This document shows, one piece after another, positions 3,370 to 22,815 of a stretch of DNA of 64,000 nt (position 1 is its first letter; every line of letters begins with the position of its first letter). Under the pieces are notes generated by a model that was not told the origin of the DNA, made no database searches, and saw only the letters and a program-made list of their open reading frames with translations. The position numbers were made by a program, and so were the translations under genes. The DNA comes from Larkinella soli (GTDB lineage: Bacteria > Bacteroidota > Bacteroidia > Cytophagales > Spirosomataceae), in the NCBI RefSeq assembly GCF_003703975.1, contig NZ_QTJY01000004.1:1-64000 (forward strand), given 5' to 3'.

Positions 3370-3404
3370 AGAAAAGGCCCGCCGGAAGCGGGCCTTTTCT
3401 TTAG
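3366..3404. terminator. Bidirectional terminator between thrC and the TPR gene
   Basis: A perfect 17-bp inverted repeat (3366-3382 with 3388-3404) has a 5-nt loop and A/T-rich outer arms, so either direction ends in a T-rich arm. Both convergent genes end inside it: the thrC stop TAA is at 3367-3369 and the TPR stop (TTA on the plus strand) is at 3401-3403. Confidence 0.9.
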
Positions 3405-5203
3405 TTGATGACGTCTCCCCGCAGGAGCCGGAATCGTTTCCGGGCCTCGGCGCCAAAAATGCTCCCGGGGTATTTCTGGAGCAGCTGGTTATATAATTCC
3501 ATGGCTTTCGGCTTGTCTTTTCTGCTTTCCTCAAAGGTTTTTGCCGTCAGGAACAGAGCATCGTCGCCCAGGACGTCGAATGAGTAGTCGGCGGTAATTT
3601 TCTGGAGGTCCTGCAGGGCGTCATCGACTTTGTTCTGTTTCAGCAGGGTATTGGCCCGCAGCCAGAGAATGTCGTCCGCCAGGCTGTGATCGCGGTATTT
3701 CGTATACAGACGGCTCAATTGCATCGCGGCAGAATCCACCTTGTTCTGAAACAACATGAGGTCTATGGCGGCATATTCCCGCATGGCGGTTTCCGTACTG
3801 TCCAGGCCCGTGTTGTCCATGATCAGCAGGCTCAGGGCGCTGGCATCATTGGCAATTTCCCGGGTCGTGGCCTGCTTGAGAATGTCCAGAATCTCCTTCG
3901 CCAGGGAAAATTCGCCTTTGTAATAGTGCAGCCGGGCGTTTTTCAGCTTGGCTTCATACCCCAGCGGCTCTTCTTTCTGGGACTTTTCGACCTGTGAATA
4001 CAGCAGAGTGGCTTCCCAGGGTTCGCTCTTCAGCAGGTAAATATCCCCCATGTCCAGTTTACAGCGGTCGACGAAGCCTTTTTCGTTTTTACCGATATCG
4101 GTAGCCAGGGTCAGAATCGTCAGGGCGGTATCTTTCTCGTTCAGGAAGAAGGCATACAGACTGGCCGTACTCCGCAGCGCTTCCAGGGTTCGGTTGTTTT
4201 TACCCAGTTCCTGAAACATTTTCTGGTAATCGGCAATCAGCTTCCGGATCTCGGCATTATCGACGGGATACGTGTTCTTAACCTGCTCCTCGCGGGCCTT
4301 GATCACCAGCCGGCGGGCAAACGGGTACAGCTGGCCCTGCGGATACTCTTTCGCCACATACTCAAACATGGCTGCTGCGTTGCGATAATCTTTGTTCTGA
4401 AGGGCGACCGCACCTAAATCGTATACTCTTACCCCCGTTAACTTCAATCGCTTGTCAAGGGCTCTTTCCTGAATAAACGCTTTATAAAAATCCTTCTTCT
4501 GCGTCAGGTACCAGACGAGCATCTCGGTATAGAACATCTCATTGGGGCTCTCCTGCACTTTTTTATACAGGACGGTTTCCAGCAGTTTCTGATCGGCTTC
4601 TTTCAGGTTATCCTGCAGAGTGGCCTGTACATTATCCCGGTTGCCCGGAATCAGCCCCCACTGGAGCAACTCATCGATCATGCTTTCTTTCTGGCCTACG
4701 GCCCCGTATAGCCGCGCCAGCTCTCCGGCGTAGGCCAATGGATCTTTGCTGGCTTCACGGGCTTTCCGGAGGGCTTTAATGGCCCAGTCATGCTTCACCT
4801 TCTCGGCAAAGTCCTGGGAGAGCTCCGCCAGGGCCGGAACATTATTGCCTGCCACGGAGATCGCCTTATTGAAATAATCCTCCGCTTTAGCCGAATCCTT
4901 GCGGCTTTCCTCCAGAATGCCTGCCTGCAGGAACACATACGGATTCCGGTCTTCGGTTTTCACCAGCCGCCGGATGACCTTTTCGGCTTCACCGATTTTA
5001 TTCAATTTGACGGCGCTTTCCACATACCGGTTAACAATTTGCTTCCCGGCGTCGTTTTTAAGGAGTCGCTGGTAGATGGTATAGGCTTTTTCGAATTCCC
5101 CTTTCTTGAAGTATTCCTCGGCCAGCTCGGGGCCTTCCTGAGCAACAGCTACCGACCACCCAAGTATCAGTAGTGTTGCCAACATCCCAATAACCTTTTT
5201 CAT
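3401..5203 (-). CDS. Secreted tetratricopeptide-repeat protein
   Basis: This is a 600-residue protein with a signal peptide (MKKVIGMLATLLILGWSVAVAQ, cleavage probably after AVA). It is followed almost entirely by helical TPR-like pairs, for example EEYFKKGEFEKAYTIYQRLL near residue 30, KAEDYFNKAI near 117 and a C-terminal block with KPKAMELYNQLLQKYPGS. Such proteins are periplasmic or outer-membrane-associated scaffolds. No enzymatic motif is visible and the specific partner cannot be named. Its 5' side borders the putative origin region; its 3' end shares the terminator with thrC. Confidence 0.85.
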   Translation of the reverse strand: MKKVIGMLATLLILGWSVAVAQEGPELAEEYFKKGEFEKAYTIYQRLLKNDAGKQIVNRYVESAVKLNKIGEAEKVIRRLVKTEDRNPYVFLQAGILEESRKDSAKAEDYFNKAISVAGNNVPALAELSQDFAEKVKHDWAIKALRKAREASKDPLAYAGELARLYGAVGQKESMIDELLQWGLIPGNRDNVQATLQDNLKEADQKLLETVLYKKVQESPNEMFYTEMLVWYLTQKKDFYKAFIQERALDKRLKLTGVRVYDLGAVALQNKDYRNAAAMFEYVAKEYPQGQLYPFARRLVIKAREEQVKNTYPVDNAEIRKLIADYQKMFQELGKNNRTLEALRSTASLYAFFLNEKDTALTILTLATDIGKNEKGFVDRCKLDMGDIYLLKSEPWEATLLYSQVEKSQKEEPLGYEAKLKNARLHYYKGEFSLAKEILDILKQATTREIANDASALSLLIMDNTGLDSTETAMREYAAIDLMLFQNKVDSAAMQLSRLYTKYRDHSLADDILWLRANTLLKQNKVDDALQDLQKITADYSFDVLGDDALFLTAKTFEESRKDKPKAMELYNQLLQKYPGSIFGAEARKRFRLLRGDVIN

Positions 5204-5249
5204 TTTATCTTTTTTAACTTAAAAATAAAGAAATAGAGGAATAGTTGCC

Positions 5250-5616
5250 TGTGGATATGTGGACAAGTTTTTTATTCACACTTTTGTTCATAAAATGTGG
5301 AAAGGTAAAGTGTCTTATCCACAGGTTCAAAATAGTTATCCACATGTAATATACTGATTTACAGCATATTTTTTACTTATCAACACACCATTGTGGATTT
5401 TGAATACTTATTGAGCACATTTCCACAGGCTCACTTCTCTACATTTCCACATGTTGATTTCCGGCTGGACGGCTTGTGGAAAATGCCCTATTTTTAAACG
5501 TATCCACCGGAGAAAAACGTTTATCCACACAGGCCCCAAATTTCTCCACCGCGACAGTCCCGTCTTTTCACAAACTATACACAGGATATTTCCACTTATC
5601 CACCGACTTATCCACG
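5250..5616. other. Putative chromosomal replication origin (oriC) with DnaA-box cluster
   Basis: The 449-bp gap 5204-5652 carries no gene. It holds three perfect DnaA boxes TTATCCACA (5315-5323, 5336-5344, 5521-5529) and TTATTCACA (5272-5280), which also fits TTATNCACA. One-mismatch boxes are at 5596-5604 and 5608-5616 (plus strand), 5377-5385 and 5575-5583 (plus), and 5250-5258, 5258-5266 and 5475-5483 (minus). Further CCACA-type sites lie between. The flanks are AT-rich (5204-5240, 5349-5380 and 5628-5652), suitable for an unwinding element. Supporting context: mnmG/gidA, a classic origin neighbour, is 2.6 kb away; a parS-like site is 4.5 kb away; and an rRNA operon is transcribed away from the site. 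dnaA itself is not in the window. The origin call is inference; the box cluster is directly visible. Confidence 0.8.
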
Positions 5617-5652
5617 AAAAGTTTGTGCTTTTTTAATTTAGAATTGACCTTT

Positions 5653-7257
5653 TTACAAGGCATCCACATTGATGTCGCTGATGTCGAAATTGGCCTTGAT
5701 GGAGACAGGGCGGGTATTGTGGAAAAAGATGGGTTCAGGGAGACGGCCCTCCGTGAGATTGCCGCTGTCCCATCGACCGTTTCCATTCTCATCGATGATG
5801 ACCCGTATCCGATATTTCCCCGGCTTGATCATCGTGAACCGGTAGCTCGGGTTGTTCAACTGACGGTCGATGACCTTGAACTCATCATCGAGCAGTTCGA
5901 TGATGAGCTGGCGGGCAGAAGTGTTGATCCGACCCGACAGCGTTCCATACCGTTCCGGATCACGCAGGTTATAGCTCAGAATGCCGGCGGCCGTCGAGTC
6001 GTTCAGGACGCTGATGAAGGCACCCTTTCCCAGGCGGATCTCCACCCGGCTCCGGGTGTTGGTGGCTTTGGTCAGAATGAACCGGGTTTGGTTTTCATCC
6101 CATTTATAATCCTGAGCGGTTACGATCTGGCGGGTCGTGCTGTCGCTGATGATCTGGATGGAGTCAGCAGTAATCCCTCGGATCGGCTTATTGAATTTTA
6201 GTTCGACGCGGAGGTTTCGGTCAACGTCTTCACTGTTCGCAGGCCTGGCCGTGAAGGTTACCGGGTCCGGATTTTCACGCCGTGTGGGAGTACGAAACCG
6301 GAACCGCTGGCTGAGTTCGGAGGTATTTTTTAGGGAGTCGGTAACCGTCAGTTGAACCCGAATGGTATCGGTCGAGGCTTTACCGTTAAAAAAAGTCAGC
6401 TCAGTTGGGGTTCGGAAATAGGCGGGAATGCTGTCCTGAGGATTCGAGAATTTGACGGTAAAGGATTCGATTCCACGGTCGAAAATGTAGGTATAAGTCG
6501 TGACCCGCTGCTCGGTCCGGACAGAACGTGGAGGAGTATTGTAGTAGGGAAACAACGTTAGCTTTAAGGTATCGATGTTTGCGGCAAGCAGTACATCCTG
6601 TTTCAGAAAGGCGACCTTTTCGGTGGCCGGATTCAGGGTCAGGTTGAGGTTTTTGTCATCAAAAGCGTAAATTTTATACCGGCCGTCCTTCACGTTTTCG
6701 ATCAAAAAGTTGCCGGAACTATCGGTGCGCGTGAAGTAATAGGGCTTTATTTTGGTCGGTGTCAGCGTATCGGTTGGAATATACAGGCCGACCAGGGTAT
6801 TCAGCACGGGCTGACCGGTTTGAATATCCGTAACCTTCCCCCCTACCCGAAGTGAGTCGATCGTACTGCCGGTGCTGAACACGAGCTTCAGATCGGTGGT
6901 CGGATTATTCTCCGTTACATCCTTGACGGCATCGGAAAAGTTGAAGGTATAGGTTGTATTTTCCTTAAATGGTTTGTCGAAAATCAGGCGGAGGCTGTTC
7001 GGCCTGGCCCGGTATTTAAAGGGCGCTTCCGGCTCGGGGGTTATCAAAATTTTCTGGTTCGGGTTCTCCACCCGAATGTATTCATTGAAGGTCAGGTCGA
7101 GGGTCCGGCCGTCAAAATTCTTCTGTTTATTTACCGGCATGCTCTTGACCAGGACGGGTGCCAGCGTATCTTTTTTACCGCCGATCGGGGCTGCGTACTG
7201 AGAACAGGAATTGAGAAAAACGAGGATAAGAGCGAATAGTAGCAGTGCCTGTTTCAT
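5653..7257 (-). CDS. Ig-like domain (Big_5) lipoprotein
   Basis: The chosen start (MKQALLLFALIL at 7257) gives a 534-residue protein with a clear lipoprotein signal: a hydrophobic stretch ending in the lipobox LNSC. An upstream in-frame Met at 7380 would bury this signal, so it was rejected. After the Cys come a bacterial Ig-like (Big_5-type) domain (LDLTFNEYIRVENPNQ), a carboxypeptidase-regulatory-like segment (VGGKVTDIQTGQPVLNTLVG ... YKIYAFDD), beta-rich repeats and a C-terminal DENGNGRWDSG loop that resembles a calcium-binding turn. It is probably a surface-exposed or outer-membrane-anchored lipoprotein of unknown role. It lies on the right flank of the oriC candidate. Confidence 0.82.
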   Translation of the reverse strand: MKQALLLFALILVFLNSCSQYAAPIGGKKDTLAPVLVKSMPVNKQKNFDGRTLDLTFNEYIRVENPNQKILITPEPEAPFKYRARPNSLRLIFDKPFKENTTYTFNFSDAVKDVTENNPTTDLKLVFSTGSTIDSLRVGGKVTDIQTGQPVLNTLVGLYIPTDTLTPTKIKPYYFTRTDSSGNFLIENVKDGRYKIYAFDDKNLNLTLNPATEKVAFLKQDVLLAANIDTLKLTLFPYYNTPPRSVRTEQRVTTYTYIFDRGIESFTVKFSNPQDSIPAYFRTPTELTFFNGKASTDTIRVQLTVTDSLKNTSELSQRFRFRTPTRRENPDPVTFTARPANSEDVDRNLRVELKFNKPIRGITADSIQIISDSTTRQIVTAQDYKWDENQTRFILTKATNTRSRVEIRLGKGAFISVLNDSTAAGILSYNLRDPERYGTLSGRINTSARQLIIELLDDEFKVIDRQLNNPSYRFTMIKPGKYRIRVIIDENGNGRWDSGNLTEGRLPEPIFFHNTRPVSIKANFDISDINVDAL

Positions 7258-7316
7258 TTTCTGGCAACGAAAAACCCTGAATAGGAAGATATCAGGGCCG
7301 TGAAAAATGGTTTGTT

Positions 7317-8207
7317 TCAGTGCGCCTGAGCGATATAAATCAGGCTCGAATAATTTCCACCGTTTCTTTGGGCCGCCCAATTAGAACGAAATCCGTTCCA
7401 GAAACTTTCAAGGTAGGCCGGTTTTCCGTCACGGTTTTTAGTACTGAGCAAATTCACGTAAAAGGCATCGAACCACATCGGACGACGGCCGGCCGGTCGG
7501 TACCCATACCGTTGCAGCAGGGATTCCATATGCGCCGGCGTGAAATGGTATAGGTGCCGTGGAACGTCGTAAGCCGCCCAATACTGGCGGTATTGCTCTG
7601 CATCCCACGACAGGTGGTTGGGAACGGCAATCACCGCGTAGCCTTTCTGAACCGTATGGGCTCTCATCCATTCCAGTGTTTCGGACAACGAATGGACGTG
7701 CTCCAGCACGTGCCACATGGTAATCACGTCCACCGGCTGGATTAATTCCAGTTGATCAATGGAAGGAACGATCGGCATTTTCGTACGTTCCTCCGCCTGC
7801 CGTCTGGCGCTCTGATCCGGTTCTACTCCGTGAATGCTCCACCCTTCCCGGGCGGCTTCTTGGAGAAAATAGCCGGACCCGCAGCCGATATCCAGCAATC
7901 GTCCCGGCGTCGGAACAAGCTTTCCAATCAAGGATACCTTCTGTCGGACGGTAATATTTCGGACCGAATGATAGAGCCGGCTAACCAATCCTTCCCGGGT
8001 ATCGCTATGTGAAATATACTGTTCGGACTGATAATACTGGCCGATTTCCTGCGGTGCCGGCCGGGGGCTGGTTACTTTAAAGCCGCATTTCTGACAAGCC
8101 TGAATCGTAAATTCCTGCTCCGAAACCAGAAAGTCTTTACAGGTAAGCCAATGTGAAAAGCCATGATTTCCGCAGACCGGACATTCCGTTAGTTGCTCAG
8201 TCGACAT
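7317..8207 (-). CDS. Class I SAM-dependent methyltransferase with N-terminal zinc ribbon
   Basis: The protein has 296 residues. Two CxxC pairs at the N-terminus (CPVCG and CQKCG) form a probable zinc ribbon. They are followed by a Rossmann methyltransferase core with motif I LLDIGCGSGYF and the downstream MWHVLEHVHS motif typical of the Methyltransf_23 family. Related proteins methylate sugars, lipids or small metabolites; the substrate cannot be deduced. The gene starts 4 bp after the mnmG stop, so it is probably co-transcribed with mnmG. Confidence 0.85.
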   Translation of the reverse strand: MSTEQLTECPVCGNHGFSHWLTCKDFLVSEQEFTIQACQKCGFKVTSPRPAPQEIGQYYQSEQYISHSDTREGLVSRLYHSVRNITVRQKVSLIGKLVPTPGRLLDIGCGSGYFLQEAAREGWSIHGVEPDQSARRQAEERTKMPIVPSIDQLELIQPVDVITMWHVLEHVHSLSETLEWMRAHTVQKGYAVIAVPNHLSWDAEQYRQYWAAYDVPRHLYHFTPAHMESLLQRYGYRPAGRRPMWFDAFYVNLLSTKNRDGKPAYLESFWNGFRSNWAAQRNGGNYSSLIYIAQAH

Positions 8208-8211
8208 ACGG

Positions 8212-10074
8212 TTAACGACCTAAATACACCATCAGAATTGAGATATCGGACGGGCTCACCCCGCTGATCCGGGAAGCCTGACCGATGGTTTGAGGACGGA
8301 CCCGTTTCAGTTTTTCGCGTCCTTCAAATGATAATGCGGCCAGACGATCATAATCGAATTGGGGGTGGATCGACAGGTTTTCGAGCTTCTCCATTTTCTC
8401 CACCAGTAGCTGTTCTTTCTCCACGTAGCTTTCGTACTTCACGGATATGACCGCTTCTTCCATGGTCTCCTGGTCGAACCGGCTTAGGTATCCGGTTACG
8501 GTTTCACCCAGTTTTTGTAACTCCTCCAGGTTCATTTCCGGCCGTTTCAGGATATGGTAGGGGGACGTTTTCTCACGAATCGGGGCGCTTCCCAACGACT
8601 CCAACAAACCATTCACCTCCTCCGGATTTACCCGCATCCTTTTCAGTTCTTCCAGAATTTCGTGGACTCCTGCTCTCTTTGTCTGCATCCGTTCATACCG
8701 CTCCTGGGAAGCCAGGCCGATTCCATAGCCTTTTTCCGTCAGCCTGAGATCGGCATTATCCTGACGTAGAAGCGTACGGTATTCGGCTCTGGACGTAAAC
8801 ATCCGGTACGGTTCTTCCGTCCCTTTGGTGATCAGGTCGTCGATCAGGACACCGATGTAGGCTTCCGAACGCTTTAAGGTGAATTCACCTAAATCTTTCG
8901 CTTTGTTATGGGCATTGATACCGGCCATCAGGCCCTGGCACGCTGCTTCTTCATACCCGGTGGTTCCGTTGATCTGGCCGGCGAAAAACAGGCCGTCGAT
9001 CAGTTGGGTTTCGAGGGTTTGCTTCAGCTGGGTCGGCGGGAAGTAATCATATTCCACGGCATAGCCTGGACGAAACATTTTGGCATTTTCAAAGCCGGAT
9101 ATTTTGCGCAGGGCATTGATCTGTACGTCCTCCGGCAGAGAGGTTGAGAAGCCGTTGACATACACTTCTACAGTATCCCAGCCTTCCGGTTCTACAAAGA
9201 TCTGGTGCCGGTCTTTGTCGGCAAACCGGTTGATTTTATCCTCCACCGAGGGGCAGTAGCGCGGCCCCAGCCCTTTAATTCGGCCGGTGAACATGGGCGA
9301 TCTTTCAAACCCAGTCCTTAAGATTTCATGCACTTCCTCGTTGGTGTAGGTAATCCAGCAGTTTCTTTGTTTCATCAAAGCCGGAGTGTCGAGGTAGGAA
9401 AATTTACCGGGCTGGTCGTCGCCGGGCTGGGCTTCCATGCGGTTGTAATTTAAACTACGGCCATCGATTCGGGGCGGAGTTCCGGTTTTCATTCGTCCGG
9501 ATTCGAAGCCCAGCTGGACCAGTTGTTCGGTCAAACCAGTGGCGGCCCGCTCGGCGGTCCTTCCTCCTCCAAACGTTTTTTCGCCTATAAAAATGCGGCC
9601 ATTCAGGAAGGTGCCGTTGGTGAGCACTACGGTTTGGGCCTGGATCTCCATTCCCATTTCCGTTTTCACGCCTACCACTTTTTTGTTTTTTACGATCAAT
9701 TCTTTTGCCGTGTCCTGCCAGAAATCAATGTTGGGCGTTTCCTCCAGGTGCTTTCTCCACTCGGCGGCAAACATCATTCGGTCACTCTGGCAGCGCGGAC
9801 TCCACATGGCCGGGCCTTTCGATCGGTTCAGCATCCTGAACTGAATCATCGATTTATCACTGATGATTCCTGATCGTCCTCCCAGCGCATCAATCTCCCG
9901 CACAATTTGTCCTTTGGCAACTCCACCCATTGCCGGATTACACGACATTTGTGCAATGGTCTGCATATTCATCGTAATCAGCAGCACCGAAGAGCCCATT
10001 GTGGCTGCGGCTGCAGCTGCTTCACAACCGGCATGGCCGGCCCCGATGACAATGACATTGTACTTATTAAACAT
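8212..10074 (-). CDS. mnmG: tRNA uridine-5-carboxymethylaminomethyl modification enzyme MnmG (GidA)
   Basis: MnmG works with MnmE to place the cmnm5 group on wobble U34 of certain tRNAs, using FAD, NADH and a folate one-carbon unit. The 620-residue protein starts with the dinucleotide-binding motif [14 protein letters not shown], carries the conserved GGRSG, CNPAMGG and RCQSDR segments, and ends with the helical MnmE-interaction domain. The start at [10 protein letters not shown] (10074) was chosen over an in-frame Met 13 codons upstream because it matches the family N-terminus. The gene is commonly found beside oriC, in line with the DnaA-box cluster 2.6 kb away. A methyltransferase follows after 4 bp. 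Confidence 0.96.
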
Positions 10075-10105
10075 ATATTTTTGGGTTTCGCATAGTTTGA
10101 AAAAA

Positions 10106-10122
10106 TGTTCCACGTGGAAACA
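10106..10122. other. parS-like partition site
   Basis: The 17-bp sequence TGTTCCACGTGGAAACA has a perfect 12-bp core palindrome TTCCACGTGGAA (10108-10119). It differs from the ParB-binding consensus TGTTNCACGTGAAACA only by one extra G in the right arm (equivalently, two changes from TGTTCCACGTGGAACA). It lies 31 bp upstream of the mnmG start, about 4.5 kb from the oriC candidate. Chromosomal parS sites cluster around origins. No parA or parB gene is in the window, so ParB binding is inferred. Confidence 0.6.
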
Positions 10123-22666: not shown

Positions 22667-22680
22667 TGACCTAATCTTAT

Positions 22681-22757
22681 ACAGGGGTGCCCTAATATAA
22701 CGGGCTGAGATTATACCCATTGAACCTGATCCGGGTAATGCCGGCGAAGGGAAATGT
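22681..22757 (+). ncRNA. Thiamine pyrophosphate (TPP) riboswitch
   Basis: The sequence contains the conserved THI-box elements in order: ACAGGGGTGCCC, GGGCTGAGATTATACCC, TGAACCTGATCCGGGTAATGCCGGCG and AAGGGAAATGT. These form the P1 to P5 helices with the pyrimidine-sensing CTGAGA loop. TPP binding normally switches off genes for thiamine synthesis or uptake. It lies about 125 bp before the start of the TonB-dependent receptor, on the same strand. Confidence 0.97.
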
Positions 22758-22760
22758 ATG

Positions 22761-22815
22761 ACGGTCGGACCGCTGACGCGGGGGATAAAAATAATCCTGA
22801 CGGACCGTGTTTTTC
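22761..22815 (+). terminator. Probable riboswitch expression-platform terminator
   Basis: Just after the riboswitch, ACGGTC (22761-22766) can pair with GACCGT (22803-22808), with further partial pairing inside (GGGGAT with AATCC). GTTTTTC follows, so this is plausibly a conditional terminator formed when TPP is bound. The stem is interrupted and folding was not computed. Confidence 0.5.

Follow-up and report, generated by a model that had tools for sequence, protein, structure and literature searches.

A gene-free gap at positions 5204-5652 of the 64,000-nucleotide stretch of Larkinella soli DNA analyzed here (the window) is, with high confidence, the chromosomal replication origin, oriC. This reading, which had been put forward in an initial annotation made from the letters of the DNA, was supported by a dense cluster of DnaA boxes, by the conservation of that cluster in relatives and, again in relatives, by the location of the gap at the GC-skew minimum and its position with respect to dif. 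The cluster, its conservation, the skew of the relatives, the distance from dif and a minimum of DNA stability adjoining the boxes were each obtained by computation.

The DnaA-box array and its genomic setting

The gap was 449 bp in length with a GC content of 0.356, confirming the AT-rich interval of the initial annotation. Scanning for DnaA boxes returned the four full boxes (TTATNCACA) that had been claimed, all of them on the + strand, at 5272-5280 (TTATTCACA) and at 5315-5323, 5336-5344, and 5521-5529 (TTATCCACA in each case), with a spacing of 21 bp between the boxes at 5315 and 5336. Where at least seven one-mismatch boxes on both strands had been proposed, eight were counted. These comprised a pair on the - strand at 5250 and 5258 (ATATCCACA and TTGTCCACA, together 5250-5266), which stands on the probable unwinding side, single boxes at 5285-5293 (-, TTATGAACA), 5377-5385 (+, TTATCAACA), and 5475-5483 (-, TTTTCCACA), and three boxes on the + strand at 5575, 5596, and 5608 (together 5575-5616). 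The claim that the density exceeds chance was tested with 5000 dinucleotide shuffles of the gap, none of which reached 12 boxes with at most one mismatch (mean 0.88, maximum 6) and none of which reached four full boxes. A chance cluster was ruled out by these shuffles together with the conservation in relatives.

The gap was the densest box cluster in the 784 kb of the L. soli genome that were counted (364 kb of contig C4 and 420 kb of contig C1). On C4 the runner-up 400-bp window held three boxes, and on C1 the top window held seven and its runner-up three. All 54 full boxes of the whole 6.9-Mb draft (82 contigs) were listed, and the gap has the most at one place; at least three full boxes within 300 bp were found at only two places in the draft, the gap (four) and C1:81108-81227 (three).

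To the left of the gap lies a gene for a TPR protein (3401-5203; Pfam TPR_6, E 1.7e-14), which served as the marker for relatives, and to the right a gene for a protein with a Big_5 Ig-like domain (5653-7380; Pfam Big_5, E 1.6e-17), the true start of which is probably downstream of the listed TTG. Both are on the - strand, and the gap comprises the upstream region of the former and the downstream end of the latter. DnaA boxes can regulate promoters, and a cluster located upstream of the TPR gene could on these grounds serve only the regulation of its promoter. Twelve boxes spread over 370 bp, a location at the skew minimum, and the presence of a box cluster in all 30 family loci that were read go beyond the needs of a promoter, and we regard such an exclusive role as extremely improbable.

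With respect to other landmarks, mnmG (gidA) was found near the gap as the initial annotation had it, at 8212-10113 on the - strand (Pfam GIDA, E 1.9e-165). It probably starts at the ATG at 10074, and two genes separate its near end from the gap, a distance of about 2.6 kb. The remark that dnaA is not nearby was likewise correct, its Pfam match being on a different contig (C2:743562-744047). A dnaA-linked origin was ruled out, as the 12 kb around dnaA contained no full box and four one-mismatch boxes. The one neighbor claimed that could not be recovered was an rRNA operon transcribed away from the gap: in the 64-kb window no rRNA was detected by Rfam at gathering scores and no tRNA by ARAGORN. 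The window begins at base 1 of its contig and the gap is 5 kb from the contig end; the seven Larkinella contigs returned by a TPR protein search all likewise end about 3.4-4.2 kb beyond the TPR match. One relative (G026) has rRNA genes (a partial 23S and a 5S) together with a tRNA gene on the TPR side of the orthologous gap, at a distance of about 9 kb and behind 5 kb of masked sequence; they are transcribed away from the gap. Transferred to L. soli, this position would fall off the left end of the contig, and the rRNA operon may lie off the left end of the window. Elsewhere in the window, a TPP riboswitch (RF00059, 68.7 bits) was observed at 22673-22770 on the + strand.

The least stable 40-mer of the window was computed to lie at 5195-5236 (rank 1 against 12792 windows taken in 5-bp steps). 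It falls in an AT-rich strip at 5189-5245 which adjoins the outermost DnaA boxes, overlaps the start codon of the TPR gene and is the likely DNA unwinding element. By the same computation the least stable side was identical in ten of ten aligned sequences, L. soli included, and the block TGTGGATATGTGGA, which forms the left end of the box array, was also invariant in ten of ten. Inspection by eye for the DnaA-trio motif next to the unwinding-side boxes gave no clear trio run. Of the features by which an oriC is recognized, a box cluster in a gene-free gap, an AT-rich element computed to melt easily, and conservation in relatives were each found here.

Conservation and chromosomal position in relatives

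Searching with the TPR protein returned seven Larkinella contigs, with best segments 82-84% identical; these contigs and the genomes of the genus analyzed below overlap and are not independent sets. All seven carried 5-7 full and 6-10 one-mismatch boxes in the 920 bp upstream of the TPR match, and by eye most boxes were in register across the aligned Larkinella gaps. Upstream of the match in Lacihabitans there were one full and eight one-mismatch boxes, and upstream of a distant Flavobacteriales locus (L052, TPR protein 33% identical) no full box and one with a single mismatch. The box count covered the ten loci of this search with L053 left out.

At the level of the family (Spirosomataceae, order Cytophagales), the TPR protein matched at E<=0.001 in 59 of 61 genomes (L. 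soli included), with G009 and G023 giving weak matches only. Loci were read from the best 30 of these 59 genomes, which include L. soli and three other Larkinella. At least five boxes were present within 520 bp of the TPR start in all 30, and at least two full boxes in 25. Box density in the family gaps was 13.5-36.5 per kb, compared with 0.9-4.0 per kb in the remainder of each locus. A pattern of two TTATCCACA boxes within 30 bp matched the gap in G026 and G048; it matched once in G004, elsewhere than the gap, and was without a match in G021, G034, G045, G003, G038, and G049. By a looser count the gaps of G004 and of these six genomes contained 6-13 boxes, so that exact-box patterns miss many origins of the family.

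A GC-skew minimum at the gap had also been predicted. Since the L. soli assembly is a draft in 82 contigs and the gap falls just 5 kb short of the end of one of them, skew was tested on relatives, and the prediction held in three of three single-contig relatives (G026, G004, and G048) but no sharp minimum was observed in the L. soli draft. The agreement in relatives is within sampling steps of 140 kb in G026 (40 pieces of 20 kb), 350 kb in G004, and 250 kb in G048. In G026 the TPR gene is at 2.786 Mb, and the cumulative minimum was at the 2.66-Mb sample, skew being positive from 2.80 Mb; the dif match is at 5.394 Mb, compared with a peak at the 5.32-Mb sample and a fall at 5.46 Mb. Skew in G004 changed sign between the 6.30 and 6.65 Mb samples (TPR gene at 6.62) and a second time between 2.80 and 3.15 Mb (dif at 3.05). 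The corresponding changes in G048 fell between 1.25 and 1.50 Mb (TPR gene at 1.478) and between 3.25 and 3.50 Mb (dif at 3.47); here the lowest sampled value was at 1.00 Mb (-0.148), barely under that at 1.25 Mb (-0.146), and the gap is at 1.478 Mb. The L. soli draft was roughly consistent with these results, skew on contig C4 being flat to slightly negative over the first 100 kb and clearly positive only later. No leading-strand excess was seen to the right of the gap, where long ORFs amount to 23.9 kb on the + strand and to 30.5 kb on the - strand, the one pointing towards the gap.

The shorter arc between the TPR gene and dif amounted to 0.492 of the chromosome in G004, 0.467 in G026, 0.487 in G034, 0.479 in G045, and 0.480 in G062, placing the origin roughly opposite dif in five of seven single-contig relatives (0.467-0.492), and was off-balance in G048 (0.403) and G021 (0.278). 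For three of these genomes (G034, G045, and G021) the position of dif is putative, coming from weaker matches (E 9e-5 to 6e-4).

Secondary box clusters in relatives, and one beside dif in L. soli, bear on a reading of the gap as a DnaA-titration or regulatory cluster of the datA/DARS kind, with the true origin elsewhere. In G062, a genome of the genus in a single contig, the gap has five full boxes within 114 bp, and a cluster 32 kb away (C1:2010135-2010244, L215) is about as dense with four within 110 bp, among the matches listed, which extend to 5.06 Mb of 6.56 Mb. Three full boxes each were found in G026 at C1:2757842-2757892 and C1:2970023-2970064 (L216 and L217), and G048 has two three-box clusters, at C1:723692 and C1:1360081. 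With one-mismatch boxes included, L215-L217 reached 3-4 boxes each, whereas the gaps hold 12 (G026) and 17 (G048) per 400 bp. The gap is moreover at the sampled skew minimum in all three relatives, and the rival cluster of L. soli adjoins dif, at a local maximum of skew. We therefore consider the titration reading very unlikely, and retain the gap as oriC. Several of the satellite clusters have a box spacing of 12 or 21 bp, as in oriC, and those of G026 are by eye apparently inside coding sequence.

parS-like sites and a second box cluster at the terminus

A parS-like palindrome (TGTTCCACGTGGAAACA) is located at 10106-10122, upstream of mnmG and 4.5-4.9 kb from the box array. It was present as the initial annotation described, but is imperfect (TGTTCCACGTGGAAAC), with two mismatches from a parS consensus. 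The strict core GTTNCACGTGNAAC had no match in the L. soli genome, in which five sites fit TGTTCCACGTGGAACA at up to two mismatches. In all seven Larkinella loci an identical 16-mer was found some 4.9 kb from the TPR match, on its upstream side. Parallel to this, a parS-like site 3.3-5.0 kb from the TPR start, on the mnmG side, was found in the seven Larkinella loci, in Lacihabitans, and in five of six single-contig origin regions; mnmG was identified in the L. soli window only, and the sites of relatives are placed relative to the TPR gene. The origin region of G048 had no such site at up to two mismatches. When the pattern was allowed two free positions and two mismatches, in 10 of 13 genomes a reversed control gave no fewer matches than the pattern itself, among the matches listed. 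The pattern being too loose, only conservation in place was taken as evidence, and what is expected of parS, a conserved palindrome near TGTTTCACGTGAAACA in sequence and close to the origin, was found here with two mismatches and kept in place. In place of the single site of the Larkinella loci, four loci of other genera (L166, L167, L168, and L051) have a pair of parS-like sites, which are separated by 26-45 bp and lie some 3.9 kb upstream of the TPR gene.

A 28-bp sequence at C1:81071-81098, which we take to be dif, a XerCD-type site, by its likeness to the E. coli site, coincided with a local maximum of cumulative skew over the 420 kb read from C1. One such site was present in each of nine genomes of the genus, and a query with the dif region gave matches at E<=0.001 in 55 of the 61 genomes of the family, most of them falling on dif. 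Sites of this type were predicted in 19 of 19 single-chromosome Bacteroidetes, according to an excerpt of PMC3025954.

The second DnaA-box cluster (C1:81108-81227) has its first box beginning 9 bp past the 28-bp dif. This cluster, which packs three full and four one-mismatch boxes into some 200 bp of strongly AT-rich sequence, could itself be put forward as the origin in place of the gap. It was assigned to the terminus because of the local skew maximum and the adjoining dif, and was ruled out as the true origin on the same grounds. The AT-rich DNA that adjoins it is the family-conserved dif sequence, and the other eight genomes of the genus have no full box beside dif, leaving this alternative a negligible probability. 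The initial annotation had named an equal or denser cluster at a skew minimum elsewhere as evidence that would count against the gap; the only other place in the draft with three or more full boxes within 300 bp is this cluster, at a local skew maximum. Full boxes within 400 bp of dif were absent in 27 of the 30 family dif loci that were read.

This cluster, together with a parS-like site at a fixed distance from dif, was the surprise of the analysis. The invariant 15-mer GGATTCACGTGGAAC was found exactly 115 bp from the dif TTAACA in nine of nine genomes of the genus, L. soli included, presumably on the XerC side. Mean pairwise identity was 54% in the spacer between dif and GGATTCACGTGGAAC and 32% in the far flank, compared with 97% in the 19 columns of the motif. 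Six of the 30 family loci (four of the genus, L. soli included, as well as G004 and G039) had a parS-like match with at most two mismatches no more than 250 bp from dif, versus 1 of 118 control windows of 500 bp. A site similar to GGATTCACGTGGAAC was noted at +62/63 from dif in G004 and G039, and a weaker one (four mismatches) at +119 in G026. The reader of GGATTCACGTGGAAC could be a partition protein or an accessory factor of dif. We tentatively suggest, as a possibility that is less likely than not, that the Larkinella terminus carries origin-type landmarks. The parS-like GGATTCACGTGGAAC 115 bp from dif would probably be a bound accessory element in dimer resolution or terminus handling, and L. 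soli would have gained an oriC-like DnaA-box array in the intervening spacer and shortly past it, giving DnaA a possible site of action at either pole of the chromosome.

Proposed initiation and comparison with known systems

For DnaA binding, the side of melting, helicase loading, and ParB binding, we propose the following scheme from the arrangement of the sites. DnaA would bind the 12-box array and oligomerise towards the conserved outer pair at 5250-5266. The AT-rich strip at 5189-5245, including the start codon of the TPR gene, would then melt, with the helicase entering there. Two forks would depart in opposite directions and meet near dif (C1:81 kb). Segregation of the new origins would fall to ParB, acting from the palindrome that precedes mnmG at a distance of 4.5-4.9 kb. 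Some results are contrary to the assignment of the gap as oriC, namely the skew of C4, the strands of the ORFs, the layout of G021, and, with respect to parS, the origin region of G048 and the strict core; in our judgement these are outweighed by the skew of the complete relatives.

The gap is a well-supported origin, and with dif it provides a replication axis for Larkinella. The TPR gene and dif offer a means of finding origin and terminus in relatives within the family, and genomes that would otherwise be numbered from dnaA can be given a correct start at the gap. It is also a fragment to try for replicating plasmids; in Cytophaga hutchinsonii, an oriC plasmid has reportedly been the subject of work at the oligonucleotide level. 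The dif-side site and box cluster raise a separate question, namely which protein recognizes a parS-like sequence positioned at a constant spacing from dif. No report of a Larkinella origin, or of a parS-like site at dif, was found among the matches listed in open-licence PMC articles.

The oriC of E. coli consists of DnaA boxes and an AT-rich unwinding element near gidA/mnmG and away from dnaA. The L. soli gap resembles it in having boxes and an AT-rich element near gidA/mnmG and apart from dnaA, but differs in that it is flanked by the TPR and Big_5 genes, with mnmG about 2.6 kb off. E. coli also has datA, DARS1, and DARS2, non-coding DnaA-related sites away from oriC, as outlined in part in PMC4585315. 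The dif-side cluster of L. soli may similarly be a DnaA-related site away from oriC, although this function is putative and the cluster is absent from the other eight genomes of the genus.

Closer to Larkinella, the excerpts of PMC12843772 and PMC11278836 place the predicted oriC of Algorimicrobium bowmanii and Mariniflexile litorale, respectively, at mnmG or next to it, using Ori-Finder 2022 together with GC skew. One of these two excerpts remarks that the position of dnaA is out of line with the skew plot, and in that of PMC11278836 the figure legend for M. litorale has oriC and ter swapped relative to the text. These are other genera (Flavobacteriaceae per PMC12843772), and the likeness to the L. 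soli gap covers the mnmG-adjacent position. An mnmG-side oriC is, on the evidence of these excerpts, already reported in Bacteroidota (PMC12843772, PMC11278836), and the Larkinella origin adds to that kind.
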